Virus record (IMG/VR): IMGVR_UViG_3300025930_000007
Coordinates: 186,001 to 250,000 of that record
Source: a virus
Strand: one strand, 5' to 3'
DNA length: 64,000 nt
Positions 2,205-58,966 of the stretch are shown here, piece by piece. The position numbers and the translations under genes are program-made. The notes under the pieces are model-generated. The model had not been told where the DNA came from, ran no database searches, and saw only the letters and a list, made by a program, of their open reading frames with translations. Positions within the stretch are counted from its first letter, which is position 1, and every line of letters begins with the position of its first letter.

Positions 2205-2262
2205 CCCTCCAGGGGGACTGGAAGGCCATCCCAAGGATACCTTCGGTAGGCCGCTCTTTCAA
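2205..2262 (-). promoter_or_regulatory. Promoter plus 5'-terminal C-loop hairpin (class B)
   Basis: Minus strand: TTGAAA (2257-2262), 17-nt spacer, TATCCT (2234-2239). The hairpin (2225 down to 2205) has stem CCTTCCAG/CTGGAGGG with one wobble and loop TCCCC, starting about +2. Stem length and loop are the same as in the hairpin at 45290-45310. Confidence 0.75.
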
Positions 2263-2264
2263 GA

Positions 2265-2771
2265 CTAGCGTGCAAGCCTCTCCAGAACCAGCTTGAGAGC
2301 CTCATCCGGTTCAAGGCGTTCAGTGTCGATCACGATCTCAGGATTTATCGGTGCCTCGTAGGGAGCTCCAAGGCCGGTGACATTCTTCTGCTCGTAGATT
2401 CCTCTCGTATCCCGGCTCTGGGCGACCGATTGGCTGCAGCGAGTGTAGATCTCGACGAACTGGATGCCGTCGCCGCCGGCTTCCGTCCTGGCCTCTTTCC
2501 TGCCCGCGAGATATGGCGAGACGCTCGCCACGACCGCGACCACCCCGTTACGAGCTAGGAGCCGCGCAATCCAGGCAATCCGCCTATTGTTTTCCAGCCG
2601 GTCTTCTTTGGAGAATCCCAGGGATGCTGAGATGACCTTCCGGATATCGTCGCCATCGATGATGTCGGCCGGCGTTCCCAGGTTTCGGTAATGACGGACG
2701 ATCCGGCGCGCGAGAGTTGTTTTTCCCGAAGCTGGAATGCCGGTGATCCAGAGGATGGGAGCCTTGCTCAC
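2265..2771 (-). CDS. cysC: Adenylylsulfate (APS) kinase-like protein
   Basis: 168 aa from a GTG start that overlaps the upstream stop (GTGA); a longer ATG reading would run into the upstream gene. P-loop GIPASGKTT at residues 11-19, then IIDGDDIR, LGFSKEDRLENN and DTRGIYEQ, the ordered motifs of CysC (APS + ATP to PAPS + ADP). The length is close to single-domain CysC. No sulfurylase or sulfotransferase is seen nearby, so the acceptor may be something other than APS. It ends just upstream of the 2205-2262 promoter. Confidence 0.85.
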   Translation of the reverse strand: MSKAPILWITGIPASGKTTLARRIVRHYRNLGTPADIIDGDDIRKVISASLGFSKEDRLENNRRIAWIARLLARNGVVAVVASVSPYLAGRKEARTEAGGDGIQFVEIYTRCSQSVAQSRDTRGIYEQKNVTGLGAPYEAPINPEIVIDTERLEPDEALKLVLERLAR

Positions 2772-3007
2772 GCTTCGAGTTCCTGCGCTCCTACCCACAG
2801 TCGGAGGATCAGGTTCGCCAGTTCCTCTTGATGCTCATCGTTTGCCATATCAGCGATCGCCTGAAGATAGCCGGAATGATACGCACGCATCACGGACCCG
2901 ACAGGCGTCCTTAGCGCGGCTTCATAAGCTTCCTTGGCGCGCTCATACGCAAGATTCCGCTCTTCGACGGTGTGAAGTCCCATCAGCGGCTTTCTACGTG
3001 TCGTCAT
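2768..3007 (-). CDS. Hypothetical helical protein, 79 aa
   Basis: Not recognised. Ala/Glu/Leu-rich helical protein of 79 aa. It lies 9 nt downstream of the 3017-4237 gene and shares a GTGA overlap with cysC. Confidence 0.7.
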   Translation of the reverse strand: MTTRRKPLMGLHTVEERNLAYERAKEAYEAALRTPVGSVMRAYHSGYLQAIADMANDEHQEELANLILRLWVGAQELEA

Positions 3008-3016
3008 AAGCGCTCC

Positions 3017-4237
3017 CTAATATTCGTGCGGCAGCAGAAGGGTCGTCATCAGATGGCCGTCGTCCGTGATGATATAGAAACGGACACCGGTAGACAACGT
3101 GTAGATACTCATCACCATGCCTTCCGTGGCCATATTCTGCCGGTTCAGATCGACATCAGGAGATTCCCCGAAGTCACCGCTGAAATGACGGTCGAGATAC
3201 TTGGCCGGCTGCTCTCCCGATTCTTCGAACGCGGCTTTCGCACCTGAAGTAATGCTCACCTGTGGTGAGGCAAATTGTGCCGGATTTGAAATGCCCATGG
3301 TCGGCGCCGGCGCCTTCGGTTGATGCCGTGCTTCGTAGCGCTTCCGTTCCTCATCGCGGCGAAGCTCAGAGATATAGAGATCATGTTCCCGCTGGCTGCG
3401 GATGTAGTTCCAGCCACCGCGAGTATCATGCTTCCTGACGTTCTTCTGCGCTTCCATCTCGTCGAATAGGGAACAGATCAGGTAAGCGTTCTTCCATGCC
3501 TTCTTAGGGACCAATTTGTCGATATTCTTCCGGATCAACGAGAAATAGGCATCCGAATATGCCTTTTCGTAAAGTTCTGCCTCGCCAGCATTCATGATCC
3601 ACTCGGATGGTGGGTGAATGAACCCAAACCAACGGATCATGGTCGGGTCAGGACTGGTTTGCCAGGTCCAGTTCCGACGTGCTTCTTCCGTGCCTTCGCG
3701 TTTGCCCTCGGAAATGATCATGGCCTTTCGAGGGTGATATTTTACGATCTCCGGCATCTTGCGTCCCAGAGTGATACCGAAATCATCTGGATCGTGACCG
3801 GCTTCTACATGAGTGGCAACTGCAGAGACCAGGCTGCAGAAGATCGGAAGTTTTCCCTCAAGCTCGCGTGGAATTAAGTCGGAAATGGATTCCTCTAATT
3901 GCTTTGTATAAGCTTCTGTGAAGGCTTCAGTCCAAATATTCCTCTCTCTGGCGCTGATGGATCTGGACTCACGGTATTGGTCCCACATCTCGCGACCGGA
4001 AATCGGGAGACCTTCTCTCAGTTCATGATCAAAGGTCTTATCCGCAAGTTCAGCGATTCTCTTGGGTGTGAGCGCCAACTCTCGTGCATCCCGCCGGAAA
4101 GCGAACCGGCTCCACGCTCTTTGGATTTCGAATAGCCCGGCTTCAGTACCGTACTCGCGCCACAGATCCAAACTACGATTTACGACCAGACGATTACCCC
4201 AGGCATTATGGTCGAAGCCGTAGGATGATCTTTTCAT
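3017..4237 (-). CDS. Hypothetical protein, 406 aa
   Basis: Not recognised. Residues 1-270 are helical with two similar-looking stretches: RNIWTEAFTEAYTKQL near 117 and AELYEKAYSDAYFSLI near 225. Each is followed by a (P/V)K..W/L-rich segment, suggesting a duplicated helical domain. Residues about 310-340 are low-complexity, and the C-terminus is a beta-rich segment. It overlaps the upstream gene stop by 4 nt. Confidence 0.75.
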   Translation of the reverse strand: MKRSSYGFDHNAWGNRLVVNRSLDLWREYGTEAGLFEIQRAWSRFAFRRDARELALTPKRIAELADKTFDHELREGLPISGREMWDQYRESRSISARERNIWTEAFTEAYTKQLEESISDLIPRELEGKLPIFCSLVSAVATHVEAGHDPDDFGITLGRKMPEIVKYHPRKAMIISEGKREGTEEARRNWTWQTSPDPTMIRWFGFIHPPSEWIMNAGEAELYEKAYSDAYFSLIRKNIDKLVPKKAWKNAYLICSLFDEMEAQKNVRKHDTRGGWNYIRSQREHDLYISELRRDEERKRYEARHQPKAPAPTMGISNPAQFASPQVSITSGAKAAFEESGEQPAKYLDRHFSGDFGESPDVDLNRQNMATEGMVMSIYTLSTGVRFYIITDDGHLMTTLLLPHEY

Positions 4238-4788
4238 CCCTTGCCTTTGCCTTTTCGCTTTTCCCTGTCGATAAACTGCCAGGTCCAGCCGCCGCCAAGC
4301 GGATAAAGCTTCATGGGTCCGCGGCCGCGGATATAGACCTCGACCGCCGGCTCTACCTGAGTCTCATTTTCCTGATCTTCAAAGGTGGTGATGAAGGCAT
4401 CCTGTTTGGGATCGTATACCGTAGGAGCGACGTGCTTCGTTTTCAGGGTGGTCTTTGAATACTTCATCGCCTCGTCGAATTCGAAGTATGGGACCGCCCA
4501 ACCATTCCAGTTCTCTCCGGTTGACCACACGCGATAGGTCTTCTCGACCCAATCGGCATAGACATCGACCGCTTTCCAGGCCGGGTTCTCGAGCTTCTCT
4601 TGAGGAACCTTGATGAAATCGTATTCCTCGACTTTGATCGGGTTGATGACCAGACCGAAGCCTCCACCGCGCGGGAAGGCATGAATCGTCCCGTCACCGT
4701 CCACGGAGTCGACCACGATGGCCCATTTGGTCCATTCATCGAGGTGCTTCCGCGGCACGATGATATCGTTGTGCTCAAAATAACGCAT
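4234..4788 (-). CDS. Hypothetical protein, 184 aa
   Basis: The start was set at the ATG at 4788, because a longer reading would run through the promoter and hairpin at 4817-4887. The protein begins MRYFEHNDIIV, has Trp/Tyr-rich beta-like stretches (EKTYRVWSTGENWNGW) and ends in a basic RKGKGKG tail. Function unknown. First gene of the operon running to about 2265. Confidence 0.75.
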   Translation of the reverse strand: MRYFEHNDIIVPRKHLDEWTKWAIVVDSVDGDGTIHAFPRGGGFGLVINPIKVEEYDFIKVPQEKLENPAWKAVDVYADWVEKTYRVWSTGENWNGWAVPYFEFDEAMKYSKTTLKTKHVAPTVYDPKQDAFITTFEDQENETQVEPAVEVYIRGRGPMKLYPLGGGWTWQFIDREKRKGKGKG

Positions 4789-4816
4789 CGTGGCTCGCGG
4801 GCGGAATGCCTCTAGG

Positions 4817-4887
4817 GAAGGCCTAATGGGGGAGGGAAGGCCTTCTACGACACTGGTAACTATACCCTTGGCTCTAAAGGCCTTCAA
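4817..4887 (-). promoter_or_regulatory. Promoter plus 5'-terminal C-loop hairpin (class B)
   Basis: TTGAAG (4882-4887), 17 nt, TATAGT (4859-4864). The hairpin (4845 to 4817) has a perfect 8-bp stem GAAGGCCT/AGGCCTTC and a loop containing TCCCTCCCCC, starting about +7. GGTATAG followed by TTACC around the -10 also resembles the class A operator. Confidence 0.75.
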
Positions 4888-4903
4888 GTTATAATCCTGC
4901 TGA

Positions 4904-5661: not shown

Positions 5662-5676
5662 GGGCTGAAGTATAGC

Positions 5677-6733: not shown

Positions 6734-6745
6734 CGGCTCTCCTTC

Positions 6746-17627: not shown

Positions 17628-17977
17628 TCGACGATCCCCAGCATCTCCCCCGATCCCAGAAGCTTCACGACCCGAGTCGCGGCGATGAAGGGGTTCATGA
17701 TGACGCTTTTGGCATCCTTGCCGAACTGCTTCTCGCGCGTCGGGGTCACGTAGAAGCCCGACTTGGCACGCCACTCGACGACGGCCTTCTTCTCCTCGAA
17801 CTCGAAGGTGTAGAAGGTGCCGGCGCCTTCTTCCGGCGGGATCGGTCCCTTGACTGCGGTCTGGACGACGGGCTTTTCTTCCGTGTACTTCACGCCGAAG
17901 AGCAGCCGACGGACTTCCTTCACGAAGACGTCGTTCTGCAGCTCGGGATCCGGTTTCCGTTCGGGTTTCTCGGGCAT
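17624..17977 (-). CDS. Hypothetical protein, 117 aa
   Basis: Pro/Glu-rich N-terminus, then a beta-rich region (GTFYTFEFEEKKAVVEW) and helix. Good AGGAG before the ATG. Not recognised. Confidence 0.7.
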   Translation of the reverse strand: MPEKPERKPDPELQNDVFVKEVRRLLFGVKYTEEKPVVQTAVKGPIPPEEGAGTFYTFEFEEKKAVVEWRAKSGFYVTPTREKQFGKDAKSVIMNPFIAATRVVKLLGSGEMLGIVE

Positions 17978-18610: not shown

Positions 18611-18839
18611 TGTCGTCCTCTTTCTTGGGAAGGAAGATGAACCGGATCGTCATGTTGACCAGAATGATCGGCCATAGAAGCGACGCGATCGCCACCATCA
18701 CCAGCCACACTCCCCGATTGGCCCGAAAGCAGGCGTCGAAGGCCGCCCGAGATTGCGGCCGATACGGCTCGGACCAGAAATAGAAGATCAACCCGCATAG
18801 CAGATAGATGCTGAGATAGAACGTCGAATTCTGGTTCAT
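18597..18839 (-). CDS. Small membrane protein with two TM segments, 80 aa
   Basis: Start at MNQNSTFYL (18839; TGATG overlap). Hydrophobic segments at about 6-24 and 44-65, with a basic/acidic C-terminal tail. Confidence 0.75.
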   Translation of the reverse strand: MNQNSTFYLSIYLLCGLIFYFWSEPYRPQSRAAFDACFRANRGVWLVMVAIASLLWPIILVNMTIRFIFLPKKEDDNAGR

Positions 18840-19564
18840 CAAACCTCGGGCTTCCATCCACTTACGCCGCGAATCCAGAGCAGCCAGTCATTCAGGAACT
18901 TCTCATCGCAGGTTTCGGCGATCGGCCATGGCTTGCGAGCGTCGATCCTCTCGATCGTGGTCTCGGCTTCCTTGACGGCCTGGTCGGTCGACCAAGCACC
19001 CGTCCTGATCGCCATCAGCTTTTCCTTCTCCTCGCCATCCTTCCAGACCTTGGGCTCGCCGCCCTGGGCAATCCGCTCCGCATCCCAGGCCACGCGAACC
19101 ATGTGGTAGCACCACTTCTCGCCGGCGACCCCGCCCTTCGAATGGACGGGTTTTGAATGCTTGAAGCGCTGGAGCTGCGCCACGGAATATCCGAGGTACT
19201 GTTTCACGACGTTCTGGCAGAGGAACTTCTTCCGTCCCTCATAAAGCGGCTTCCACTTGGGATCAAACCAGACGAACTTGTCCGTGAAGAGCATCTCGAT
19301 GATTCCGGGATTGCCCTTGATGAGCAGATCGCAGAACTTCTTGACCTCATGGACCTGATAGTCCGGCTTCTCGCCGGTCAAGGTATCGCTGGGAGGGTGC
19401 AGGCCCAGAAGATCCTTGGGATAGGCGACGTAAACGCCCGTGTAATCGATGTCGCTCGAGGGAAGCTGGGTATCGTGCGAATGGCTTCCCCAGACCTTCG
19501 AGAAAAGAACCATGCCGCGGATCTCGCGGTCATTGCTGCGCCAGCCGAGAGGATTGAGATCCAC
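18839..19564 (-). CDS. Nucleotidyltransferase (pol-beta superfamily, RlaP-like)
   Basis: 241 aa. Catalytic block at residues 23-46: WGSHSHDTQLPSSDIDYTG, i.e. GS(x)nDxD with D38 and D40. This is the predicted nucleotidyltransferase family that includes phage RlaP-like proteins; the substrate is not known but RNA-end modification is often suspected. The C-terminal half is helical. Confidence 0.8.
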   Translation of the reverse strand: MDLNPLGWRSNDREIRGMVLFSKVWGSHSHDTQLPSSDIDYTGVYVAYPKDLLGLHPPSDTLTGEKPDYQVHEVKKFCDLLIKGNPGIIEMLFTDKFVWFDPKWKPLYEGRKKFLCQNVVKQYLGYSVAQLQRFKHSKPVHSKGGVAGEKWCYHMVRVAWDAERIAQGGEPKVWKDGEEKEKLMAIRTGAWSTDQAVKEAETTIERIDARKPWPIAETCDEKFLNDWLLWIRGVSGWKPEV

Positions 19565-21126: not shown

Positions 21127-21513
21127 CTACTGCGATTCGACGATATCTTCGAACCGGAGGGGGCCGAACGCCTTATCCCAGGCTGCGGCCGCCCAGCGCA
21201 TGCCGTCGACCTTTTCGCGCGGTGCATCCTTGTGCCTGAAATGCTGCCGCATCGACCAGTAATCCTCGCCCTCGATCTCGATGGAGAAATAGCCGGCTCG
21301 TTTCAGTTGCAGGGCCTGCTCGTAGGAGGCGTTGAAGGTGACGTAGAAGCCGTCCGGATGGCCTTCGCACGAATAGTGGGTGGGAAGCCCCAACTGGTCA
21401 AGCATGAGGACGAAGTAGTTCACGCCTGGATCGAGAAGTTCGCCGCCGCGATAGATCTTGATCGCTGCAGCTTCGTCCCAGACGTTCTTCTTTGTATATA
21501 TGCCTTTTCGCAT
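21127..21513 (-). CDS. Hypothetical phage protein, 128 aa
   Basis: Contains LPTHYSCEGHPDGFYVTF, a stretch I associate with a conserved phage family of unknown function. First gene after the class B promoter and hairpin at 21521-21579. Confidence 0.7.
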   Translation of the reverse strand: MRKGIYTKKNVWDEAAAIKIYRGGELLDPGVNYFVLMLDQLGLPTHYSCEGHPDGFYVTFNASYEQALQLKRAGYFSIEIEGEDYWSMRQHFRHKDAPREKVDGMRWAAAAWDKAFGPLRFEDIVESQ

Positions 21514-21520: not shown

Positions 21521-21579
21521 ACCGTCTGGGGGGTGTGACGGCTCAGAGTGATTCTATTCGGCCATCATCCCCAAAGCAA
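21521..21579 (-). promoter_or_regulatory. Promoter plus 5'-terminal C-loop hairpin (class B)
   Basis: TTGCTT (21574-21579), 17 nt, TAGAAT (21551-21556). Hairpin stem GCCGTC/GACGGT (one wobble), loop ACACCCCCCA, starting about +3. Confidence 0.65.
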
Positions 21580-21581: not shown

Positions 21582-21639
21582 TGGCTTTCAGGATTCGGAC
21601 AGGATAGACTTTCAGTGGCCTTCCGTCCCCCGGCAGGCC
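21582..21639 (+). promoter_or_regulatory. Probable promoter plus 5'-terminal C-loop hairpin (class B, plus strand)
   Basis: Weak -35 TGGCTT (21582-21587), 17 nt, TAGACT (21605-21610). Hairpin GGCCT/AGGCC with a TCCGTCCCCCGGC loop (21617-21639) begins about +1. Divergent from the neighbouring minus-strand class B promoter. Confidence 0.55.
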
Positions 21640-21674
21640 TTATCCGGCCGTCTTCCGCCCTGATCGGTTGCTCC

Positions 21675-22550
21675 ATGGCGCATAACACGGCCTCCTTCGA
21701 TTTTGGAACCTTCCAAGTTCACGTCAAGTATATCGGGCAGCAAGGAGGCTATGCCTACGCCACCAGAATCGAGGTTCCTGGCTATGATCCGATCGATAGC
21801 GGAGTTCTCCTGCCGAGCTTCCCAATTTTCTCCTCCGCAGCGGCAGGGGCCATCGACCAGCTCCGCGAGCTTCTTCAAGTAGGCGTTCCGGCATACTTGG
21901 ACGACTGGCGCCAGGCAAGAGGAACTATCAGCTTCAAGGAAGTCCAGGACATGAGGCTCACCTTTCTTTCGTGGAAGGACGCGGCCGCCGCGCTCGGCGG
22001 AGACCAGGCTCTTGCAAATGCGATAAAGCAATTGGAAGCCCAGGAGTTCGCAGAAAAACAGGCGAACTATCCGAAACAAGCGAGACCAACTCCAGGCGAG
22101 ATCCCAGTCGATGTCCAATATGACCTTGGATCTGTCCTCATGGATATGCGCGTAATGGGAATCGTCGAAGGATTCCCCATGTGGCATATCACGGCAATCC
22201 CTCCCGGAACAGACCTGCAGGCCAGTTCTGTTATTGTCGCGACGTCTCCGTTCTCGCTCCCTATCTCCCAGTTGATGGTGGACAATCTTGAGGCTGTCCT
22301 GAGACAAGGCGTTGAACGTTACCTTCGTGAAGACCCCAGGGCCACCCGCACTCCGGTCACGCCAGAGAAGAGGAGCGCCACGGAAAATCTCTATGCCGTG
22401 GCCAGCTATCTTGGGCCAGAGGGTATCGCTCATGCGGATCAGGCGGTGAAAGATCTGATCCAGGAGAAGCTCGATACCCTTGAAGGGCAGGCTTTAGAGG
22501 CGATGGAAGCTACGATCGCCGAGTACCGGAAACGGAAGCCGAAACTCTAA
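21675..22550 (+). CDS. Two-repeat hypothetical protein, 291 aa
   Basis: ATG 21675 chosen because the upstream GTG (21615) would lie inside the leader hairpin; no good SD is visible. Two similar domains: FDFGTFQVHVKYIGQQGGYAYATRI...AIDQLRELLQVGVPAYLDD at 8-80 and YDLGSVLMDMRVMGIVEGFPMWHIT...NLEAVLRQGVERYLRED at about 150-220. Isolated on the plus strand. Function unknown; the copies suggest an internal duplication. Confidence 0.75.
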   Translation: MAHNTASFDFGTFQVHVKYIGQQGGYAYATRIEVPGYDPIDSGVLLPSFPIFSSAAAGAIDQLRELLQVGVPAYLDDWRQARGTISFKEVQDMRLTFLSWKDAAAALGGDQALANAIKQLEAQEFAEKQANYPKQARPTPGEIPVDVQYDLGSVLMDMRVMGIVEGFPMWHITAIPPGTDLQASSVIVATSPFSLPISQLMVDNLEAVLRQGVERYLREDPRATRTPVTPEKRSATENLYAVASYLGPEGIAHADQAVKDLIQEKLDTLEGQALEAMEATIAEYRKRKPKL

Positions 22551-23025: not shown

Positions 23026-23808
23026 TTAGAGAAGACCCAATAGCCACAGAAGACTGGCGCCGCCGGCGACCGCGCCGCCAGTGTACGCCACCGTCTTGAT
23101 GATCTTGACTCTCCCCATCGCCTCGGCGCACTCCACGGCCTTCCCGGTCACGACGACCTCCCCGTGCGAGATCTCGAACGTAGCCGTGGGTGGCGCTGTG
23201 GCCAAAAACTCCTTCAGTCGCTCCTGGAGTTTGTCGACGATCGGGAACCCGTCCGCCTGAACGATGTCCCGAAGGCATTGCTCGCGCGCCAATTCCTTGG
23301 CAGCCTCTTCGGGAGTCAGAGGACTGAGGACAACCGTGAGAAGATCGGAGAGTTCCTTCGCCTCATTGTAGGTGAGCTGCGTCTTTCCGTGGAATCCCGT
23401 CTTCCCTGGAGGTGTCATCGGAGGTCCTTTGACGGGCTTCGGCGGCAGCGTCATGTTCGGGCACCGAGCCTGGACGGTGCCAGCGACCGCATCTTCAGCT
23501 TGTCCTGTCTGTTCCGCCTGCTGCCGAACATAGGACCAGAAGATCCGGGAACGAGCGTCATTCTCTTCGTTACTTCCCGCTTGCTCTTCCGAGAACTTCT
23601 TGAGCATGTCGCAGATCCGAGTCTGACGCTGCTCGATCCTTACGGCGTCGTCCGGCCTCTCGGGACGGACAGCGGGCCGTTGGGCAGGTTTCGGACCTAT
23701 AGGCATTCCCTTCGCATTCTCGTCCTGGCCCATCCAGGCCCCAGACAGAACAGGATTGATCGGTCGGATGCCCATGGTTCCGAATGCCGACTGGTTGAAC
23801 ATGCCCAT
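23026..23808 (-). CDS. Putative virion or membrane-associated protein, 260 aa
   Basis: Pro-rich linkers (residues 30-55 and 120-140), a helical middle, and a C-terminal hydrophobic Gly/Ala segment (TVAYTGGAVAGGASLLWLLGLL type; positions 239-260). Single-pass tail-anchored topology is likely. First gene after a class B promoter; a structural role is inferred from context and composition. Confidence 0.7.
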   Translation of the reverse strand: MGMFNQSAFGTMGIRPINPVLSGAWMGQDENAKGMPIGPKPAQRPAVRPERPDDAVRIEQRQTRICDMLKKFSEEQAGSNEENDARSRIFWSYVRQQAEQTGQAEDAVAGTVQARCPNMTLPPKPVKGPPMTPPGKTGFHGKTQLTYNEAKELSDLLTVVLSPLTPEEAAKELAREQCLRDIVQADGFPIVDKLQERLKEFLATAPPTATFEISHGEVVVTGKAVECAEAMGRVKIIKTVAYTGGAVAGGASLLWLLGLL

Positions 23809-23833: not shown

Positions 23834-23904
23834 GCCAGAGGAAGGGGGGGGAGAGCCCCTGGCTGAGTCTTCAGGATTTTACGACAGAAGATTCCGAACT
23901 ACAA
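23834..23904 (-). promoter_or_regulatory. Promoter plus 5'-terminal C-loop hairpin (class B)
   Basis: TTGTAG (23899-23904, over the upstream stop), 17 nt, TAAAAT (23876-23881). Hairpin GCCAGGGG/CCTCTGGC (one wobble) with 14-nt loop containing eight C, starting about +7. Confidence 0.7.
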
Positions 23905-32111: not shown

Positions 32112-32537
32112 CTAAAGTTCCTGCTCCATGACTCGGCGCGACTTCAGGATCGCGGCCGTCTCGAAGATGAAGGGAGCGTGAGGGATGACGGCGATCCACT
32201 CGCCTTCAGGGCCCCCGAACGTCGGATGAAAGACTTCCACGAAGACGCCCTGCGCCTTCGGCTGCCCGATGGCGATGACCAGGCGAACCCGCTGCTTCGC
32301 GGCATAGAGGATGGAGGCGAGGAAGACGCTGATGCAGTCCGAATCGCCAGGGCCGCCCTTCTGGAGGCCATCCGGCGTCCCGGCAGAGCCTGGATTCTTC
32401 CGGGCCCAGTCAGCGAGCTTCTCGAGCATCGGCCGATACTCCATCTCCTCCTTCACGGTGGCTTTTGCCTTCTGCGGAACCATGTTTCCGCACATCTCGG
32501 GGGGAACTCCAGGGGGAAGGCGATCCATGATTCCCAT
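32112..32537 (-). CDS. Transglutaminase-like cysteine peptidase
   Basis: 141 aa. GDSDCISVFLASIL (C68) matches the GDCxD nucleophile helix of transglutaminase-like proteins; VFVEVFHP (H104) the following histidine strand, and E112-E/W a possible acidic residue. The usual C-terminal Asp is unclear. Might crosslink or cleave a phage or host protein. Start could also be ATG 32528. Confidence 0.65.
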   Translation of the reverse strand: MGIMDRLPPGVPPEMCGNMVPQKAKATVKEEMEYRPMLEKLADWARKNPGSAGTPDGLQKGGPGDSDCISVFLASILYAAKQRVRLVIAIGQPKAQGVFVEVFHPTFGGPEGEWIAVIPHAPFIFETAAILKSRRVMEQEL

Positions 32538-37289: not shown

Positions 37290-37353
37290 GTCCCTTTGGG
37301 GGAGGGAGGGACCGCCTATCTTGGACTATAACATCCTTGCATCCCCAGATCAA
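37290..37353 (-). promoter_or_regulatory. Promoter plus 5'-terminal C-loop hairpin (class B)
   Basis: TTGATC (37348-37353), 17 nt, TATAGT (37325-37330). Hairpin GTCCCT/AGGGAC with 11-nt loop CCCTCCCCCAA (37312 to 37290), starting about +7. Confidence 0.75.
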
Positions 37354-38720: not shown

Positions 38721-39255
38721 TTTTCGTTTCCTCAGGGGGTAGGACGAGTTTCATCTCACGATTGGGCGGAACGATGGGAGTCAAATGAACTTGCGGTGGT
38801 ACGGTCCTAGGATCCACTGACGAGTTCATCACCATCATATAAGACCCGGAATATCCAGTCGACCAGTACGAACTGGACATCATCAGTTTCTGGCCATTCA
38901 GGAAGTATTCCGGACGCCCACTGGAATCCGGGATCATCTTATGGTCATGCTTCTGGATCCGGTTGTCCCACCTCATTCCACAGAGAGCGCACGTCTCAAA
39001 ATACGCAAATTCTTCAGCGCAACCCTTACAGGAATGCCAAGTCTTGATGCCGTGCTTGCAGCGAACGGCGGCATCGTTGGCCTTCTGGGAAGACTTATTG
39101 TCCTGAATCTCCTTGATCCAGCCGGCGACCTGGGCGACGAGGATAACGCCTGCCCAGGCAAGCGAGGAGACCGGCTTGATGCCCCGATTCCAGTCGACCA
39201 TCATGGCCACCAGCATCACTGGAATCGCTGCATACCAGAACACCAAGTATTTCAT
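38713..39255 (-). CDS. Membrane protein with Cys motif, 180 aa
   Basis: Two or three hydrophobic segments in residues 1-45, then CKHGIKTWHSCKGC and CALC zinc-type pairs, and a Ser/Tyr/Met-rich stretch (SSYWSTGYSGSYMMVMNSS). Pro-rich C-terminus. Unknown. Confidence 0.7.
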   Translation of the reverse strand: MKYLVFWYAAIPVMLVAMMVDWNRGIKPVSSLAWAGVILVAQVAGWIKEIQDNKSSQKANDAAVRCKHGIKTWHSCKGCAEEFAYFETCALCGMRWDNRIQKHDHKMIPDSSGRPEYFLNGQKLMMSSSYWSTGYSGSYMMVMNSSVDPRTVPPQVHLTPIVPPNREMKLVLPPEETKNA

Positions 39256-40262
39256 CCCTTGACCTCGTTCAATACGATTGCCTGACGCATCCAGTGCCCA
39301 TGGGTTTGGACGTGGTTCTTCCTAACGTATTTCGCAACAACATCCTTAAATTCCTTGTACTGGAAGGCCCGTGCGACGCGAACGACGTAACCTTCGCAGG
39401 GATCTCCGTTGTATAGGTCGATCTCGATGGCCTTCGTCCAACTCTCGTCCCAGAGACCACGATGGAACACGGGCACCGTCTTCAGATCCAGGAGCGCGCA
39501 CCAGCTCTCCGTCTCCTCCCAGGAGAGGCATTCGTTCTTCTCGTTCCAGATCGAGAAGACCAGGAAGTGCGCCGGCAGATTCAGGTAATGGATCGAATGC
39601 TTGGCGTAGAGGTTCTCGCCGCAGATCCTCCAACCAGGCGGAATATCATGTCCGATCCGGCGATGCAGGCCCCAGAGCCAGTCCCTGGAGGGATGCGGCG
39701 CCGTGTCGATCGAGCGGGCATGGAAACCATCCGGGTACATGGATGTCTGCTCCCCGTCCATCTTGATCGTGATCACGACCGCCTGGCCCTCCAGGCCGTG
39801 GAGCGATGGGATGATCTTGTCGTCGCTTGAGACGTTCGGGCTCCAGGGAAGGTGATGGGTCCGCTGGTATTTCACCCGATCCGTGAAGAGGTGCAGGACC
39901 GGCTTCAGGATCTTCTGGACGCTCTCGTCATGGAAGAGTTCGCCCTTCAGACGCTGGCCGTTCGGGAGGATCGGATTGCCCCACTTGTCCACCGGCTGGT
40001 CCGAGTAGAAGTGAGGGGGCAGGAGAACCTCCTGGATCCCGCAGCGCTCCCGGAGCTCGTCGCACGAAAGCTCCGTGGACTCTGCCAGGAGATGATGGAC
40101 CTCGCAGACGGAGGCCCCATTCGAGACGTAGTATCCCCCATCGGGCCACAGTCGGCGTTCGATGATGTGGTGAGCATCCTTCGCCGGCTGCCCGCAGACA
40201 ACGCATTCCCAGCCGTCTCGCTTGAAGACGGCATTCCTGAACTCGTCTCTACTTAGCAACAT
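39252..40262 (-). CDS. HNH endonuclease fused to RNA ligase domain
   Basis: 336 aa. Residues 1-60: FKRDGWECVVCGQPAKDAHH...VSNGASVCEVHH, a complete HNH domain (C20, C23, H31/H32, N48, C53, H56). Residues 155-315: KMDGE (Lys167, adenylation motif I), WRICGENLYA (III), CEGYVVR (IV) and DVVAKYVRK (V) of the Rnl2-like RNA ligase/nucleotidyltransferase family. One chain could cut and seal. 44-kb-scale neighbours include rnlA and Thg1. Function as a repair or recombination enzyme is inferred. Confidence 0.85.
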   Translation of the reverse strand: MLLSRDEFRNAVFKRDGWECVVCGQPAKDAHHIIERRLWPDGGYYVSNGASVCEVHHLLAESTELSCDELRERCGIQEVLLPPHFYSDQPVDKWGNPILPNGQRLKGELFHDESVQKILKPVLHLFTDRVKYQRTHHLPWSPNVSSDDKIIPSLHGLEGQAVVITIKMDGEQTSMYPDGFHARSIDTAPHPSRDWLWGLHRRIGHDIPPGWRICGENLYAKHSIHYLNLPAHFLVFSIWNEKNECLSWEETESWCALLDLKTVPVFHRGLWDESWTKAIEIDLYNGDPCEGYVVRVARAFQYKEFKDVVAKYVRKNHVQTHGHWMRQAIVLNEVKG

Positions 40263-44787: not shown

Positions 44788-45243
44788 CTAGGCGTTCGAA
44801 GACAGGTTGGTGACGCCGTTCACCTCAAGCGCGATCAGCACGGCCGTGCCGGTGATCAGCCAAAATGCCGGATTGCCAAGGAAGGACATCGAATCCTCTG
44901 ATCCGGGCCCCGACAGTGCAGGAGCTTGATAGCCCTCACGCATCCTGGGATATGGCTTCCAGGCCTCTCCTCCCGGCCGGGCTCTGAACGAAACCTTGCC
45001 CCTGGGAGAGGCCGCAGCAGCAGCAAAAGGATCTCCACCATCTGATGGAAATGAAGCTTGCTCTATCTTCTTGTGCGCCGGCTTGAAGTAGTCGTAGAAA
45101 TCGCGCGTCTTGGCGGAAGGGCCTGGCACCGGTGTCTTTGGTGAAAACACATCGTAGATCGAGCTGCCCTTGGGCTTGGGCTTCAGGAAGTCGAACAGCT
45201 CATCGGATTTCCCAAGGGATCCAGGGCCCCAATGATTCATCAT
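44788..45243 (-). CDS. Putative virion/membrane protein, 151 aa
   Basis: Contains YDVFSPKTP and YDYFKPAHK repeats, a basic middle and a C-terminal TM (PAFWLITGTAVLIALEV). Starts after a class B promoter/hairpin; no SD is visible, which is unusual. Confidence 0.65.
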   Translation of the reverse strand: MMNHWGPGSLGKSDELFDFLKPKPKGSSIYDVFSPKTPVPGPSAKTRDFYDYFKPAHKKIEQASFPSDGGDPFAAAAASPRGKVSFRARPGGEAWKPYPRMREGYQAPALSGPGSEDSMSFLGNPAFWLITGTAVLIALEVNGVTNLSSNA

Positions 45244-45289
45244 GAGAAAAAACCATTTCGGGCGGAATGAGTTCTACCGGACCTTTAGA

Positions 45290-45346
45290 CCGCCCAGGGG
45301 GACTGGACGGACAGCTTAATCATACCGCTTAACCTTGGGACTTCAA
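45290..45346 (-). promoter_or_regulatory. Promoter plus 5'-terminal C-loop hairpin (class B)
   Basis: TTGAAG (45341-45346), 16 nt, TATGAT (45319-45324). Hairpin CCGTCCAG/CTGGGCGG with loop TCCCC, starting about +3; same 8-5-8 geometry as 2205-2225. GGTTAAGCGG over the spacer also recalls the class A operator. Confidence 0.75.
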
Positions 45347-45365: not shown

Positions 45366-46412
45366 TTATAGCGGTTCAGGCTCCGGTGTAGGGATGACCC
45401 GCATCGTGCCGATCGACATTTCCAACGGGAACGGATGGAAGATCGGACTCCATTTATGTTCGAACTCTTTGTATTCGAGATAGGCTCTCCAGACCATGTC
45501 ATCGGAAAGCAGATAATGCATTCGCTCGACCAGTTCCGTAGCGGACTTCACGTATTTGCGATTACGTCCCGCAATGGCCTCGCTGCTCGCATGCATGCCG
45601 AGATGTTTGACCAATCGCATCAAATAGTCCCCGGCGTCTTGCTTGGCACGCTCCTCGTTCGTATGACGCCCCGCATGGGAGGCCCCGCCGAAATCGGCAT
45701 ACTGAACAAGCCAGCTCCTCATGGCGCCGAGACCCATACCCTTGTCCTTGGGGAATAGCCGTCTGAGAATCCCTTCTCTGAAGGCCTCGAGGAATTGCCT
45801 TTCGGACTCTTCGTCCTGATAAGGGAACTTCCCTTCCAGCGCTCTTTCAGACGCCACGATTGCCTTCAAGAATTGCTCTTGCGTGATCCGGATGTTCTTC
45901 AGTTGGGCTTTATTGGAGACGACCTCCAGGAGATCTTCTACGATCGCAGCCATCTTGTCTTCACGGCGATTGATGGCAAGCGTAATCTTTCCTTTTTCAG
46001 CATATTTCTCAATGGGACGAATCTTCGTGCGTTCGATGAACGGAATCTTGTTTTTTAGGCCGGTTTCTGGAGAGCCCTCGACAATCACTGTGCCGATTTT
46101 TGCGTAGAGTGGCCGCCCGAACTCATTTTCGAAGCGAAGGTAGAAGTCCTCCCAAAGATCGTAGGCATCCCAAACCTTCCCTGCCTGGATAAGCTGCTGT
46201 ATCTGAGGGATCAGGTATTGCATCCCCTCGAAGAATTCAGGATGCTCAGGAGCCTCGAATTCGCCGCCTTCCGAAAGAAAGTGCTCCAGATTTCTCCTGA
46301 TCCATGTACCGAGCAGGTATCCCACTTCGCCCGACGCGCTCGCCTCGTTGTTGTGGATGGTAGGCGAGCCGACTTCCAGGGGATAGGCCCATTGGACCTT
46401 ATAGCGTTTCAT
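45366..46412 (-). CDS. Hypothetical protein, 348 aa (paralogue of 46399)
   Basis: Start ATG 46412. Shares WDAYDLWEDFYLRFENEFG...LYAKIGTVIVEG with the neighbouring gene (WGAYDEWHRFMNRWED...LWVLIGTVIVDG). Trp-rich alpha/beta region, then helical C-terminus. Function unknown. Confidence 0.7.
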   Translation of the reverse strand: MKRYKVQWAYPLEVGSPTIHNNEASASGEVGYLLGTWIRRNLEHFLSEGGEFEAPEHPEFFEGMQYLIPQIQQLIQAGKVWDAYDLWEDFYLRFENEFGRPLYAKIGTVIVEGSPETGLKNKIPFIERTKIRPIEKYAEKGKITLAINRREDKMAAIVEDLLEVVSNKAQLKNIRITQEQFLKAIVASERALEGKFPYQDEESERQFLEAFREGILRRLFPKDKGMGLGAMRSWLVQYADFGGASHAGRHTNEERAKQDAGDYLMRLVKHLGMHASSEAIAGRNRKYVKSATELVERMHYLLSDDMVWRAYLEYKEFEHKWSPIFHPFPLEMSIGTMRVIPTPEPEPL

Positions 46413-47058
46413 GGGTGAACCCAAAATGGTGAAAGGTGTCCCGCCTGGTCAACCGATACCAGTGTTCGATGTTCTTCGGGTCTTTCACTTCCTCGTCGTA
46501 GCTCTTGGAGATCGTCATCACCGTATTCATGATCTCGGCGAAGGGCGGAGGCTGGGCGCCGCTGTCTACGAACCTCTGGTTGACCTCCGTAGCGATCGTC
46601 CTCCAGGTCTCGTGCAGCGTCTTGAGGAAATTCCACTGCCAGTCCATCTGTTTCCCGCGATCCATGCTTCGTGCCAAGCTTTCGGCTGGGTGGTACTTGG
46701 GTGTCACGGTGGGCCCTGGTCCGTCCACGATGACCGTTCCGATCAGGACCCAGAGCGGCGTTGGAAGAACGTCTTCCCAACGATTCATGAACCGATGCCA
46801 TTCGTCGTAGGCGCCCCAGACTTCATCGTCCTCGAGGAGGACGCCCAGGGATTCGAGCATCTGCTGGGCATCCTCGATGAATCCAGGGAAGTTCCGTTCA
46901 TAGCCCCAGACGGTCGCATATTGGGGCAACTCTTCATCGAATTTCGATGCAAGAGCGGCAAGATGCCGGGCAGTGTCGACTTTGGCGATCTCCTCCAAGG
47001 CATGGACGCTCGTGCAGTCCTTCTTGAAGTCCAGGATCCTGCAAATCCGCCAAGACAT
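46399..47058 (-). CDS. Hypothetical protein, 219 aa (paralogue of 45366)
   Basis: Start ATG 47058 (MSWRICRILDFKKD). The IGTVIVDG motif and preceding WxAYDxW segment mark it as a tandem duplicate of 45366-46412. Overlaps it by 14 nt. Function unknown. Confidence 0.7.
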   Translation of the reverse strand: MSWRICRILDFKKDCTSVHALEEIAKVDTARHLAALASKFDEELPQYATVWGYERNFPGFIEDAQQMLESLGVLLEDDEVWGAYDEWHRFMNRWEDVLPTPLWVLIGTVIVDGPGPTVTPKYHPAESLARSMDRGKQMDWQWNFLKTLHETWRTIATEVNQRFVDSGAQPPPFAEIMNTVMTISKSYDEEVKDPKNIEHWYRLTRRDTFHHFGFTHETL

Positions 47059-47074: not shown

Positions 47075-47136
47075 CCGCGGCGGGGGAGGGTGAGCTGCGG
47101 CAAGAAGAAGATACCATACCTCGGCTGGACTAACAA
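47075..47136 (-). promoter_or_regulatory. Promoter plus C-rich leader (class B, minus side of a divergent pair)
   Basis: TTGTTA (47131-47136), 17 nt, TATCTT (47108-47113). Leader has a CCGC/GCGG stem (4 bp only) around CACCCTCCCCCG, starting about +2. Confidence 0.5.
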
Positions 47137-47187
47137 GCCACTACAAGCTATGATTCTGGGAGCGGCAACACCCTCCCCCTCGCCGCT
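47126..47187 (+). promoter_or_regulatory. Promoter plus 5'-terminal C-loop hairpin (class B, plus side)
   Basis: TGGACT (47126-47131), 17 nt, TATGAT (47149-47154). AGCGGC/GCCGCT hairpin with CACCCTCCCCC in the loop (47161-47187), starting about +1. Overlaps the minus promoter's -35. Confidence 0.7.
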
Positions 47188-47205: not shown

Positions 47206-48534
47206 ATGAGTCTGATCACCGGCCCCGTAGCGCTAATGCGTCTGGTCACCGTCGAGACCGTCACCGACCTCGATCGCCTTATGACCAGGATGGGCCTGCC
47301 GTCTCAGGATGCTTCCGTCGAGACCAAGTTCAACGGATGGCTCACCCAGGCCGCCGGCGGCCGCCTCTACTCGCGGCGTGGGAAGGATCTCACCGACAAG
47401 TTTCCGCATATCGCCAAGCTGGTCGCTCCTTTCAAGAAAGAGCATCTGATCGGTGAGCTCGTCTATTTCGACGAGAACGGCGTCATGCAGGAGCCAGCCG
47501 TCACGACCATCGCGGGGACCAAGGATCATCGCGAAGCCATCCGGAAGATGAAGGAGATGCCAGGACACTTCGATTATGTGGTCTTCGACGTCCTGGCCGC
47601 AGACGGGCACGACATCACCGATCAGCCGACCTCTGTTCGGCGCGCAGTTTTGGACGAATGCTTCTGCAATTCCGGGCTCACGCTCTCCAATCCTCAGCCT
47701 CTTTCCATGCTCCAGAAAGTCTATGACGAAGGCGTCGCGGCCGGCGCCGATGGCGTCGTGATCAAGAATCTCAGGGCACCCTATCTCTGGAAACCCTTCG
47801 GTCAAAGCGAAGTCCAGCCTGTTGGATACTGGTGGAAGCTCAAGCCAGCCTTCACGGACAACTTTGTGGTCACCGGGGTCCACTACGGACCAAAGGGAAG
47901 ATTGCTGGCCACTCTCTCTCAATATCACCGTGGACAGCTTGTCGACGTCTCCGATGTCGGCAATTTTGCCGCGCCGGTCGCCAAAGAATTCATTCAGCGC
48001 ATCACCAAAGGGCCATTCCTGGTTGAGATCGAATATCTCTCCAGATTCCCTGATCCTCCGGGAGCTCTCCAGCATCCACGCTTCATCCGTTTCCGCGAAG
48101 ACCAGGACCTCGACTCAGCTCAGCTACCGGCAAAATACGGAATGCACGGGCCATCGATTGGCGTTCCGCTTCGCGGTTATGCAAACTACTGGATCAAGCC
48201 CGATGGCGAAGTAATCGAGTTCACCGAGCCCGAGACTCATGAACTCTATTCTTGGGATGCTGGTTTCGGGACCGTTGGCGAGGCGATCGAGGCTGGCTGG
48301 ATCCGCGCCTTCGAATATCGGGACAAATTGGGCTTCGACCTCTTGAATATTGAGGACCCCAACACATTCTCCAGACTGACTGAATTCCTAGAAAAGTTCT
48401 ACGCCGAGCATGGCCCCTTCAGCGCCGTAATCGACTTCACGCTTCCGCAACACGGCTTCATCACCATCGATCCCGAAGATCTTTCCTCCGAATCCATCCC
48501 GGATCTCCTTCGGATCGGTCTTCGGAGAGCGTAA
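47206..48534 (+). CDS. ATP-dependent DNA ligase-like protein
   Basis: 442 aa. Motif I ETKFNGW (Lys41; canonical KxDG here is KFNG), GELVYFDE (III), DYVVFDVLAADG, ADGVVIKN (IV) and WWKLKP (V, 209-214) in order. Two acidic positions are altered (D to N in motif I, E to D in IV). A further C-terminal domain (about 330-442) is not recognised. Likely seals DNA nicks; GAGG precedes the start. First gene of a three-gene plus-strand operon. Confidence 0.85.
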   Translation: MSLITGPVALMRLVTVETVTDLDRLMTRMGLPSQDASVETKFNGWLTQAAGGRLYSRRGKDLTDKFPHIAKLVAPFKKEHLIGELVYFDENGVMQEPAVTTIAGTKDHREAIRKMKEMPGHFDYVVFDVLAADGHDITDQPTSVRRAVLDECFCNSGLTLSNPQPLSMLQKVYDEGVAAGADGVVIKNLRAPYLWKPFGQSEVQPVGYWWKLKPAFTDNFVVTGVHYGPKGRLLATLSQYHRGQLVDVSDVGNFAAPVAKEFIQRITKGPFLVEIEYLSRFPDPPGALQHPRFIRFREDQDLDSAQLPAKYGMHGPSIGVPLRGYANYWIKPDGEVIEFTEPETHELYSWDAGFGTVGEAIEAGWIRAFEYRDKLGFDLLNIEDPNTFSRLTEFLEKFYAEHGPFSAVIDFTLPQHGFITIDPEDLSSESIPDLLRIGLRRA

Positions 48535-51142: not shown

Positions 51143-51619
51143 CTACTTAGGCTTACCGACGACGATGCTCGCCAGCACCACAAGAGCGCCGATCTCCGTC
51201 CAGAAGGCGATCTTGTTGAGCATCGAACCGTTCCCGGTGAGGAGCTGAGTGGCGCCGGCGCCCAGGCCTACGAGCGCCGCCGTCACGCCGATCGGCGTGC
51301 TGTTATTCGAAGGTGCTGCGGCTGGGGTTGCTTGGCCCATTTCACGGATGGAATGGCAGAAGCCGTCATATCCCATCACTTCATCCGGTGTGCAGAACTG
51401 ATCGTCGATTGGCCGCCTGTTGTAACTACCCATCTGCATGATCGGCTGGCAGGTCCCATCGGCGCCGACCTCTTCATTGGGGCCACAGAGCCCATTCTCG
51501 AATGGAGCACGATGGGTCATGACGCCGAAGCCGCGCTCAAAGCTATGCCCGGCGCCGCCGAAGCCGCCGCCGCCACGGCCGAGATTGAGGCGCAGGGTTG
51601 TCGGTTTCCAGGTGTACAT
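51143..51619 (-). CDS. Putative virion protein with Gly-rich N-terminus and two hydrophobic segments
   Basis: 158 aa. RGGGGFGGAG N-terminus, three Cys-bearing CGPNEEVGADGTC and CTPDEVMGYDGFC repeats, then hydrophobic segments at about 105-125 and 138-155. The repeats resemble the C(x)nPxxxVGxDGxC layout; role unknown, likely structural. Confidence 0.65.
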   Translation of the reverse strand: MYTWKPTTLRLNLGRGGGGFGGAGHSFERGFGVMTHRAPFENGLCGPNEEVGADGTCQPIMQMGSYNRRPIDDQFCTPDEVMGYDGFCHSIREMGQATPAAAPSNNSTPIGVTAALVGLGAGATQLLTGNGSMLNKIAFWTEIGALVVLASIVVGKPK

Positions 51620-51643: not shown

Positions 51644-51701
51644 GGTCGCCGGGGGAAGCGACCGGACAGCCTGATTATACTTTGAGCCCAGGCGATCTCA
51701 A
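51644..51701 (-). promoter_or_regulatory. Promoter plus 5'-terminal C-loop hairpin (class B)
   Basis: TTGAGA (51696-51701), 16 nt, TATAAT (51674-51679; perfect). Hairpin GGTCGC/GCGACC with 8-nt loop TTCCCCCG (51663 to 51644), starting about +5. Confidence 0.8.
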
Positions 51702-51955: not shown

Positions 51956-52020
51956 TTGACTGCGGTATCGGGCGGCGGTAGATTCTGGTTGTCCGCCCGA
52001 CGCTGCCCTCCCCAGGCAGC
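51956..52020 (+). promoter_or_regulatory. Plus-strand promoter plus C-loop hairpin pointing into a minus-strand gene
   Basis: TTGACT (51956-51961), 17 nt, TAGATT (51979-51984). Hairpin GCTGCC/GGCAGC with loop CTCCCCA (52002-52020), about +11. The nearest downstream gene is antisense (52032-53174), so it should make an antisense RNA. Confidence 0.55.
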
Positions 52021-54800: not shown

Positions 54801-54812
54801 AGTTCAGTCCTA

Positions 54813-54841
54813 ACTCTAACCTTAAAGCCGCGATCCTTCAA
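54813..54841 (-). promoter_or_regulatory. sigma70-like promoter
   Basis: TTGAAG (54836-54841), 17 nt, TAGAGT (54813-54818), ending about 7 nt before the ATG at 54800. No C-loop hairpin and no SD: near-leaderless. Confidence 0.55.
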
Positions 54842-55686: not shown

Positions 55687-55690
55687 CGCA

Positions 55691-56773: not shown

Positions 56774-57732
56774 TGATTGTAGACGACTCTTCCCTGAGGC
56801 AAGCTGAAGGAGGTTCTCTTCTTCTTCCGCTTGCACTTCTTGCAGCCGATGACGTGATTGGGATTCATTTCGTCATGGAGTTCGATAGGACCCAAGGGCA
56901 CTGCTTCGGATCCAAGGAATCCACCGCCAGGATAAACCATCTTGATCGAGATTGGGCTCGAGACGATGGCCGGTGTGCTGTCATCACGGTTCCGGTACAC
57001 GTTGACCGCAACACTGACGGTCTGAGGGAACCAGAAGTTGATGGGATTCGAGAGCAGCGTTTCATTCCGTACATCACCAGCCGGAACCGTCATAAGCTTC
57101 ATGCCGACTTCACTGGGTTCCGGCTTCGACTTGAAGACGACCTGCCCTTCGTCATCCCGGATTTCCAGTCCGACGAAGAACGAGAGAGGATCCTTCCCCT
57201 GATTCCGAATGGAGAAGGCAAACGGCTGGTCGATCAGCATGTTGCGAACTGTGCCGCCCGTCCGATCCTGCCGCGGATCGAGCATGATGCTGAGCCTGCT
57301 GGCCAGCCAGCCCGGAGGCTCATTGGGAACAGGGTTATTCGACGACGGCGGCAGGATGCTGCTTCCGGTCGGAGATGGAGGTTCCGGCGCAGCCGGCTCC
57401 TGGAAGAGGAAGTAAAGACCGGCGGCGATCCCGGCGACGGCGCCCGCATAAGCAGCAGGCTTCCAGTCCTGAGAAAACGTCTCGGACAGATAGTAGGACG
57501 TGAGGCCGCCTCCGATCAAGGCCGAAGCCAGCCCGAGGTTCTTCTTGTTGATCGGGACGTCCGGAACAGCCTTCGCCACGATCAGCGACGCCAGATAAGC
57601 GCCGCCGGCCCAGGCGATGAACGGCAAGCCGAACCGGATCAGGATAGGAACCGCTGCTTGAACCTGACCAAGGTGCAGTCTTGGCCCATTCCCGAGCATC
57701 GGAACCTTTTTGGCTGGCTTCCACTTGGTCAT
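56770..57732 (-). CDS. Putative virion/membrane protein, 320 aa
   Basis: Start ATG 57732. Hydrophobic segments at about 28-50, 66-82 and 95-112 (AAYAGAVAGIAAGLYFLF), a Pro-rich linker (115-145), then a beta-sandwich-like domain with RNQGKDPLSFFVGLEIRDDE (immunoglobulin-like) and a Cys/Lys-rich end. Structural role inferred. Confidence 0.65.
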   Translation of the reverse strand: MTKWKPAKKVPMLGNGPRLHLGQVQAAVPILIRFGLPFIAWAGGAYLASLIVAKAVPDVPINKKNLGLASALIGGGLTSYYLSETFSQDWKPAAYAGAVAGIAAGLYFLFQEPAAPEPPSPTGSSILPPSSNNPVPNEPPGWLASRLSIMLDPRQDRTGGTVRNMLIDQPFAFSIRNQGKDPLSFFVGLEIRDDEGQVVFKSKPEPSEVGMKLMTVPAGDVRNETLLSNPINFWFPQTVSVAVNVYRNRDDSTPAIVSSPISIKMVYPGGGFLGSEAVPLGPIELHDEMNPNHVIGCKKCKRKKKRTSFSLPQGRVVYNQ

Positions 57733-57739
57733 ATAGCTC

Positions 57740-57940
57740 CTATTGCCATTTCTCTTGTTCTTTTTCGTAGGCTTCCCAGAACGGAACCGTGTATTGCCCG
57801 CTATCGGGGCTGAGCGGCAGGCCCTGGCAGCGCGGACAGCCCATGACGTGCCGCACGTCGCGCTGATCGTGAACTGTGACCGTCCCGAGGCGGATCTGTG
57901 GACGATCAAGAGGATTCCAGACCACTCGTACTTGTCTCAT
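57740..57940 (-). CDS. Hypothetical protein with zinc pair, 66 aa
   Basis: Start at MRQVRVVWNPL (ATGA overlap). Beta-rich with HVMGCPRCQGLP. Not recognised. Confidence 0.65.
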   Translation of the reverse strand: MRQVRVVWNPLDRPQIRLGTVTVHDQRDVRHVMGCPRCQGLPLSPDSGQYTVPFWEAYEKEQEKWQ

Positions 57941-58206
57941 CGGCACGACCTCTTTGCGTTCTTCTTGAGTTTCCCCCAAACTACGGTCACATGATTCCCG
58001 CGCTTCTGACTCCGGAAGGTGCGGAAACAGGTCTTCGGCCGCTGCACCACCCGGAAGGATCCCGGCGTTTCGATCGTGATCCTGGCTTCCTTCCGAGAGT
58101 GCCGTTCCGCGATCATGCCGGCTTCTTCCTTCGAATGGACGAAGGGATGGGTCTTCTTCACGACGACCGCCTGTTCGACCCAGACCTTCTTCGGCTTGGC
58201 CATCAT
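57937..58206 (-). CDS. Hypothetical basic protein, 89 aa
   Basis: Lys/Arg-rich, alternating beta-like stretches, ending KKNAKRSCR. Not recognised. Couples to both neighbours. Confidence 0.65.
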   Translation of the reverse strand: MMAKPKKVWVEQAVVVKKTHPFVHSKEEAGMIAERHSRKEARITIETPGSFRVVQRPKTCFRTFRSQKRGNHVTVVWGKLKKNAKRSCR

Positions 58207-58694
58207 TATCTCCGAAGGATCAGGCAGAGCCGGCCCCAGAAACGAGCCAGTTGATTCCTGTCTTGGATCACCATGGCGTAGTTCTTCTTGAAGTCTGCCA
58301 TGTCCCCCGAAGCGAGCGCCAGGATGTAACCGCCGGTCGCGGTCACATGGGTGAGGAAGAGTTTCTCGAACTCCTGCTTCGGGAAACCCGGGATCTCGCT
58401 CTCGTAAAGCCTGGTCTGATCGTTCGCATTCAGGATCAGGGCTTCGACCGCGGCATCGACCGTACCTTGGTCCTTGGCGAACGCGGCGTCCGTGAGCTGC
58501 TTCACCAGGGCGATGTGCTGGTTCATGAGCCGGGTGGCGTCAGGGATCTTGAGGAGATCTCCCCATTCCTCGGCGCCTTCGACGAGCTTATTGACGGCAT
58601 TCGCCTGCATCCGGGCATCTTTCTGGTTCGTCGCCGCGACGTACATGTACGTCTCGCCGACGTGATCGAACCACCAGGTTGCGCAGTCAGCCAT
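58206..58694 (-). CDS. Hypothetical helical protein, 162 aa
   Basis: All-helical, with a WFDHVGETYMYVAATNQKD start. TAATG coupling to the upstream gene. Not recognised. Confidence 0.7.
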   Translation of the reverse strand: MADCATWWFDHVGETYMYVAATNQKDARMQANAVNKLVEGAEEWGDLLKIPDATRLMNQHIALVKQLTDAAFAKDQGTVDAAVEALILNANDQTRLYESEIPGFPKQEFEKLFLTHVTATGGYILALASGDMADFKKNYAMVIQDRNQLARFWGRLCLILRR

Positions 58695-58888
58695 TACCGG
58701 CCCTTTCTGGCTTTCTTGACCATCTGAATCATTCGTTCCTGACGAAGGGCGCTCCTCTTACTCCTATGGCGCCCAAGGAGAAGACGAGGCTTCTTCTTGG
58801 AATAGAGGCAGATGGGAAAGCCGGGCTTCTTGTCGCCAGAATAGCAGGGCTTGATGATGCCCAACTGAAGACGGATTCCCCCAGGCAT
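58694..58888 (-). CDS. Basic mini-protein, 64 aa
   Basis: AAGGAG 7 nt before ATG 58888. Lys/Arg-rich C-half (KKKPRLLLGRHRSKRS). First gene after the class B promoter/hairpin at 58910-58966. Possibly nucleic-acid binding. Confidence 0.7.
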   Translation of the reverse strand: MPGGIRLQLGIIKPCYSGDKKPGFPICLYSKKKPRLLLGRHRSKRSALRQERMIQMVKKARKGR

Positions 58889-58909
58889 GAAACGGCTCCT
58901 TGAAAGCTG

Positions 58910-58966
58910 AAGGCACGGGGGGAGTACCCTCGCCGATATTATGCCTTGTGGAGGGCGGAAAGTCTA
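58910..58966 (-). promoter_or_regulatory. Promoter plus 5'-terminal C-loop hairpin (class B)
   Basis: TAGACT (58961-58966), 17 nt, CATAAT (58938-58943). Hairpin AGGGTAC/GTGCCTT (two wobbles) with loop TCCCCCC (58930 to 58910), starting about +1. Confidence 0.75.

Follow-up and report, generated by a model that had tools for sequence, protein, structure and literature searches.

The 64,000-nucleotide window analyzed here (bases 186001-250000 of the 266,490-base virus record IMGVR_UViG_3300025930_000007) comes from a giant bacteriophage, marked as such by tail-fibre genes, a DNA ligase, an RNA ligase, a helicase and many tRNAs. Several of its genes share a 5′ leader of defined position and structure, in which a promoter is followed by a hairpin with a constant C-rich loop and, in many cases, by an exact second word, TCCGCCC, that is linked to the start codon. 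A preliminary description of the window had listed twelve sites with a C-loop hairpin behind a promoter. All twelve were read and folded, and eleven proved good (2205(-), 4817(-), 21521(-), 21582(+), 23834(-), 37290(-), 45290(-), 47075(-), 47126(+), 51644(-) and 58910(-)); ten of these have an unbroken stem of at least 5 bp and a CCCC-containing loop, and the stem at 47075 requires one mismatch. The twelfth, 51956(+), is doubtful because no plus-strand gene was called downstream. The hairpins and TCCGCCC elements are listed below in window coordinates.

2203..2227, minus strand: C-loop hairpin GGCCTTCCAG TCCCC CTGGAGGGTC, with promoter TTGAAA-N17-TATCCT upstream; leader of gene 1610-2164(-)
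2178..2184, minus strand: TCCGCCC element, 20 nt 5′ of the ATG of gene 1610-2164(-)
4817..4845, minus strand: C-loop hairpin GAAGGCCT TCCCTCCCCCATT AGGCCTTC, promoter TTGAAG-N17-TATAGT; leader of gene 4234-4788(-)
4799..4805, minus strand: TCCGCCC element, 17 nt 5′ of the ATG of gene 4234-4788(-)
21521..21542, minus strand: C-loop hairpin GCCGTC ACACCCCCCA GACGGT, promoter TTGCTT-N17-TAGAAT; short leader of gene 21127-21513(-)
21617..21639, plus strand: C-loop hairpin GGCCT TCCGTCCCCCGGC AGGCC, with inner CCG/CGG pairs; leader of gene 21675-22550(+)
21654..21660, plus strand: TCCGCCC element, 21 nt 5′ of the ATG of gene 21675-22550(+)
23834..23863, minus strand: C-loop hairpin GCCAGGGG CTCTCCCCCCCCTT CCTCTGGC, promoter TTGTAG-N17-TAAAAT; short leader of gene 23026-23802(-)
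37290..37312, minus strand: C-loop hairpin GTCCCT CCCTCCCCCAA AGGGAC, promoter TTGATC-N17-TATAGT; short leader, with an in-frame ATG 22 nt 3′ of the hairpin (open reading frame (ORF) end 36995)
45290..45310, minus strand: C-loop hairpin CCGTCCAG TCCCC CTGGGCGG, promoter TTGAAG-N17-TATGAT; leader of ORF 44788-45243(-)
45260..45266, minus strand: TCCGCCC element, 23 nt 5′ of the ATG of ORF 44788-45243(-)
47075..47100, minus strand: C-loop hairpin CCGCAGCTCACCCTCCCCCGCCGCGG with one stem mismatch, promoter TTGTTA-N17-TATCTT; short leader of gene 46399-47058(-)
47161..47187, plus strand: C-loop hairpin AGCGGC AACACCCTCCCCCTC GCCGCT; short leader of DNA ligase gene 47206-48534(+)
51644..51663, minus strand: C-loop hairpin GGTCGCT TCCCCC GGCGACC, promoter TTGAGA-N16-TATAAT; short leader of gene 51143-51619(-)
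52002..52020, plus strand: doubtful hairpin GCTGCC CTCCCCA GGCAGC, following TTGACT...TAGATT; no called plus-strand gene downstream
58909..58931, minus strand: C-loop hairpin GAGGGTAC TCCCCCC GTGCCTTC; short leader of gene 58694-58888(-)

A constant loop on variable stems

Across the 266-kb record, C-loop hairpins directly followed a TTG-N17-22-TANNNT promoter 19 times, against a mean of 2.1 and a maximum of 6 in 40 shuffles, which confirms a family behind promoters; G-loop hairpins followed the same promoters twice. Regardless of promoter, C-loop hairpins were not enriched in the record (173 vs. 266 in shuffles). The objection that such hairpins might be equally frequent in shuffled sequence holds for the hairpins overall, but not for those that follow promoters. 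Among 43 promoter-like strings before genes, 21 carried a strong hairpin, the loop of which contained CCCC in 14 cases and GGGG in none. In an unbiased count upstream of all called genes, CTCCCCC was the top 7-mer at −60 to −30 (9 vs. 0.76).

The family has about 25 members in the record, each in a 5′ untranslated region. They are single hairpins of 14–30 nt, with no second conserved stem found, and lie in sense orientation 7–80 nt (most 15–60 nt) before the called start. The hairpin begins 6–15 nt past the −10 hexamer, or at about +1 to +10 of the predicted 5′ ends. The loop, (U/A)CCCC(C), is constant, with CCCC or longer in each member, mostly after U, and a total length of 4–16 nt; the stem sequence is free. 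When sites were chosen by promoter and C-run with no stem required, 19 of 29 still formed a strong stem, and swapping 3′ flanks between sites reduced this to a mean of 4.3 of 29 (maximum 10, 300 trials); G-, A- and T-run controls gave 0, 2 and 0 strong stems. In an alignment of the innermost 6 bp of 20 clean members, every position had 4–6 pair types and 0.1–0.6 bits of sequence information, a diversity that is descriptive only, because the members were selected for pairing, and for which the flank swap is the control. Three leaders of paralogous tail-fibre genes (leaders 1039, 4041 and 8047 in record coordinates) differ at four stem pairs that all still pair, one position being A-U, G-U or G-C. 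Together, the flank swap, the range of pair types and the kept loop bear out the earlier view that structure rather than stem sequence is conserved. Folding z-scores of 42-nt start regions were only slightly lower for C-loop members and were uninformative.

These results bear on two other explanations. Inverted repeats at about +1 to +25 of promoters could act in DNA, as operators bound by a dimeric regulator. Their arms, however, have no common sequence (0.1–0.6 bits per position), and the loop is asymmetric, with C only on the transcribed-sense strand, following gene direction, which makes an operator very improbable. Alternatively, any stable stem at +1 might protect the mRNA, the C-run being merely an unstructured loop. 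The +1 position and free stem sequence match the ompA/papA-type 5′ stem-loop (references 93-95 in PMC3997798). But a purely protective stem needs no constant loop, whereas CCCC occurs in the loop of all members and G-, A- and T-run loops lack such an association; TCCGCCC would also be unexplained. We consider a plain stabilizer improbable.

A second leader element near the start codon

TCCGCCC is a newly found second element of these leaders, missed in the preliminary description. The exact word is present in 16 of 25 hairpin leaders (0.08 expected) and is the top 7-mer at −35 to −8 of all called genes (13 vs. 1.1), above Shine-Dalgarno words. Since one-mismatch copies are not in excess, the word is exact. 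Its first base usually lies 17–25 nt upstream of the start codon; the exceptions are genes 17904 and 32458, where the ATG of a mini-ORF is 18 nt away, and 144967, at 32 nt. An extra copy precedes record gene 86487-87257(-), where the hairpin is weak. The standard deviation of its spacing is 3.4 nt to the start codon and 6.4 nt to the hairpin, and although this variance test is weak (P = 0.10), the link to the start codon favors a role in translation or decay over one in transcription elongation. The distance from hairpin to start is 28–61 nt in leaders with TCCGCCC and 7–31 nt in those without it (P = 7e-5); because the latter are short, a C-rich site lies near the start codon either way. Shine-Dalgarno sites tended to be weaker in leaders with TCCGCCC than without (P = 0.08, not significant), which would fit a helper role.

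The two mini-ORFs (record 32402-32460 and 17867-17906), each with its ATG 18 nt past TCCGCCC, have stops that overlap or just precede the next start (MSICNLSGGEKKS before gene 32458; ATGTCATGA before gene 17904), and translational coupling to the next gene is possible.

A start-codon-linked word speaks against a put- or nut-like antitermination site, at which the nascent hairpin, with or without a phage factor, would load onto RNA polymerase and promote terminator read-through. The hairpins do lie immediately 3′ of the promoter, like putL (PMC9378689), some leaders precede long transcription units, and T-tailed terminator-like sites are few. RNA polymerase, however, does not see the start codon to which TCCGCCC is tied; put is ~70 nt long with two stem-loops and conserved residues (PMC9378689), against one short free-sequence stem here; and neither phage record yielded a NusG domain. 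Antitermination is unlikely on this evidence, and a put-like antiterminator, while possible, is less favored than an mRNA-level leader.

The C-rich loop might instead pair with G-rich RNA, either in trans (a ribosome-binding site or small RNA) or in cis (a G-rich site in its own mRNA). Loops of the UCCCCC type are known in the small RNAs sX13 and HPnc5490 (PMC3771888), and GGGG or longer stands directly before the start in leaders 4041, 137720, 144891 and 237644. Nevertheless, pairing of the loop with its own leader (−6.49 kcal/mol) was not clearly better than with swapped leaders (−6.14), TCCGCCC matched its own start region no better than those of other genes, and TTCCGCCC paired with E. coli 16S rRNA no better than shuffled words did. 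We therefore think such pairing rather unlikely to explain the leader.

Genomic distribution and promoter classes

Members occupy both strands, as first described. Many of the genes behind them are unknowns; tail-fibre genes and DNA ligase are among the rest. The family does not extend genome-wide, as had been claimed. A second record, 99.99–100% identical in the overlap and hence the same phage, adds 83 kb to the 266-kb record, so that the genome is at least 349 kb; this adjoining 83 kb, which carries primase, helicases and thymidylate synthase, contains no members, where about 8 are predicted at even density (P = 4e-4). Nor do the hairpins stand in front of most putative virion genes: the recognized virion genes behind leaders encode tail fibres and lie outside the window, and the genes behind leaders inside it are DNA ligase and unknowns.

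A second promoter class, found in both the 266-kb record and the adjoining 83 kb, consists of TTGAC, a GGTAAAC box in the spacer and TANNNT. Examples are at record 78045(+), 199038(-) (window 13038) and 228105(-) (window 42105), with others in L054, L056 and L057. Within the record, 11 GGTAAAC boxes precede genes; the extra 83 kb has 11 more GGTAAAC words, not all of them in front of genes. The C-loop hairpin was never seen with these promoters in the two records; TTGAC promoters accompany 0 of 19 family members and 9 of 23 others (P = 0.002, with classes counted by eye). Absence from the replication region and avoidance of TTGAC are consistent with a separate temporal class. The two promoter types thus suggest two expression classes, with the timing inferred from sequence: the hairpin-leader regulon is probably late, and TTGAC/GGTAAAC promoters possibly form an early or middle class whose spacer holds an operator.

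Viral contigs, genome contigs and phage records, searched with terminase, helicases, DNA ligase, RNA ligase and other genes, contained no near relative; apart from the overlapping record described above, these scans yielded only RNA ligases of ~50% identity, for the most part from AT-richer phages, and chance pattern matches. Applied to stretches from nine distant phages, the same promoter/hairpin test did not show a clear excess.

The phage also encodes an array of tRNAs, with 43 calls in L009-L011 (record ~51-84 kb) covering almost every amino acid, which suggests a near-complete tRNA set of its own. An initiator-type tRNA-Met at L009:18539-18615 (record 58539-58615) has the CGCGGGG 5′ end of bacterial tRNA-fMet, and its anticodon stem has CCAGG/CCTGG in place of three G-C pairs beside the loop. 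A tRNA with a CTA (amber) anticodon at L054:13483-13556(-), labeled Pyl by ARAGORN, is a possible amber suppressor. Genes related to RNA metabolism include a phrog_850 RNA-binding protein (L010:5257-6981), an RNA ligase with an HNH-like N-terminus (window 39252-40262(-)) and an RlaP-type nucleotidyltransferase (window 18839-19564(-)).

The leader and known systems

We give even chances to the explanation that these sequences form a modular 5′ leader of one giant-phage regulon of ~25 transcripts, acting on mRNA via a trans factor. The leader runs from a sigma70-like promoter (TTG, almost never TTGAC) through the 5′-terminal (U/A)CCCC(C) hairpin and, in longer leaders, TCCGCCC to the start codon. 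Most likely it works at the mRNA level, after transcription initiation, and the hairpin would in addition cap the 5′ end against 5′-dependent decay. The similar C-rich sites, UCCCCC in the loop and linear UCCGCCC, would be recognized by one trans-acting factor, either a protein of the phage or its host or a G-rich RNA, which would jointly set translation or lifetime of the regulon mRNAs. More tentatively, the two-part leader could be an address tag for one temporal mRNA class, which a phage RNA-binding protein or a modified ribosome would selectively translate or protect.

Several points weigh against a leader read by a trans factor. Transcripts, 5′ ends and binding partner are predictions from the DNA alone. 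A search of both phage records for cold-shock, KH_1, S1, RRM, NusG, S21 and sigma-70 region 4 domains gave none, and thus no candidate for the factor. TCCGCCC is missing from 9 of 25 leaders, and start codons were assigned with a home-made gene caller, with two TCCGCCC distances reassigned by eye to upstream ATGs. Masking of the Shine-Dalgarno sequence by TCCGCCC was not supported, complementarity to its own Shine-Dalgarno window being no better than in controls, nor was pairing of the loop with its own leader, on the same grounds; pairing with E. coli 16S rRNA was likewise not supported.

How giant phages redirect gene expression is mostly unmapped. With ~25 leaders in which the loop is constant, the stems vary freely and an exact second word stands close to the start codon, a regulon can be defined by sequence alone. 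The shared leader points to a previously undescribed signal for the timing or efficiency of gene expression, and the set predicts transcription starts and could be used as bait to capture the factor that recognizes it.

In line with the preliminary description, no known family was found to match this one: the window gave no Rfam 15 match at gathering score, and a literature search of partial coverage found no description of a C-loop hairpin combined with a second element. HK022 put antiterminates without a phage protein, through the β′ zinc-binding domain of RNA polymerase. It is ~70 nt long, forms two stem-loops of conserved sequence and occurs in two copies per genome, with putL just downstream of PL (PMC9378689). 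Our leaders resemble put as phage RNA structures near promoters, but they have one short free-sequence stem, a constant C loop and a further element close to the start codon, and there are ~25 of them; neither two stem-loops of ~70 nt nor a conserved stem sequence (0.1–0.6 bits per position) was found. Thus the hairpin family with kept structure and loop stands, whereas the proposed analogy with put is weak; the preliminary description itself had not chosen between antiterminator, stabilizer and protein-binding site.

Lambda nut sites (boxA and boxB) and rrn boxB-boxA leaders combine a hairpin with a short linear element. The phage leader does too, but its linear element is the start-codon-tied TCCGCCC; there is no boxA-like sequence, and the only enriched linear words in hairpin leaders are TCCGCCC and Shine-Dalgarno-like words. 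C-rich-loop small RNAs (sX13, HPnc5490, RNAIII) have apical UCCCC(C) loops, and every member here has apical UCCC/CCCC. In the phage, however, these loops lie at mRNA 5′ ends, and a G-rich partner is not demonstrable, since complementary G-rich start sites occur in only a few leaders and pairing does not clearly exceed the swap control. Like the stabilizing stem-loops of ompA and papA, the leader places a stable stem at or within a few nt of the predicted 5′ end, but its loop sequence is constant and it is common to a whole set of transcripts. By the features tested, the leader belongs to no compared system and is a phage cis-acting element used across a regulon.

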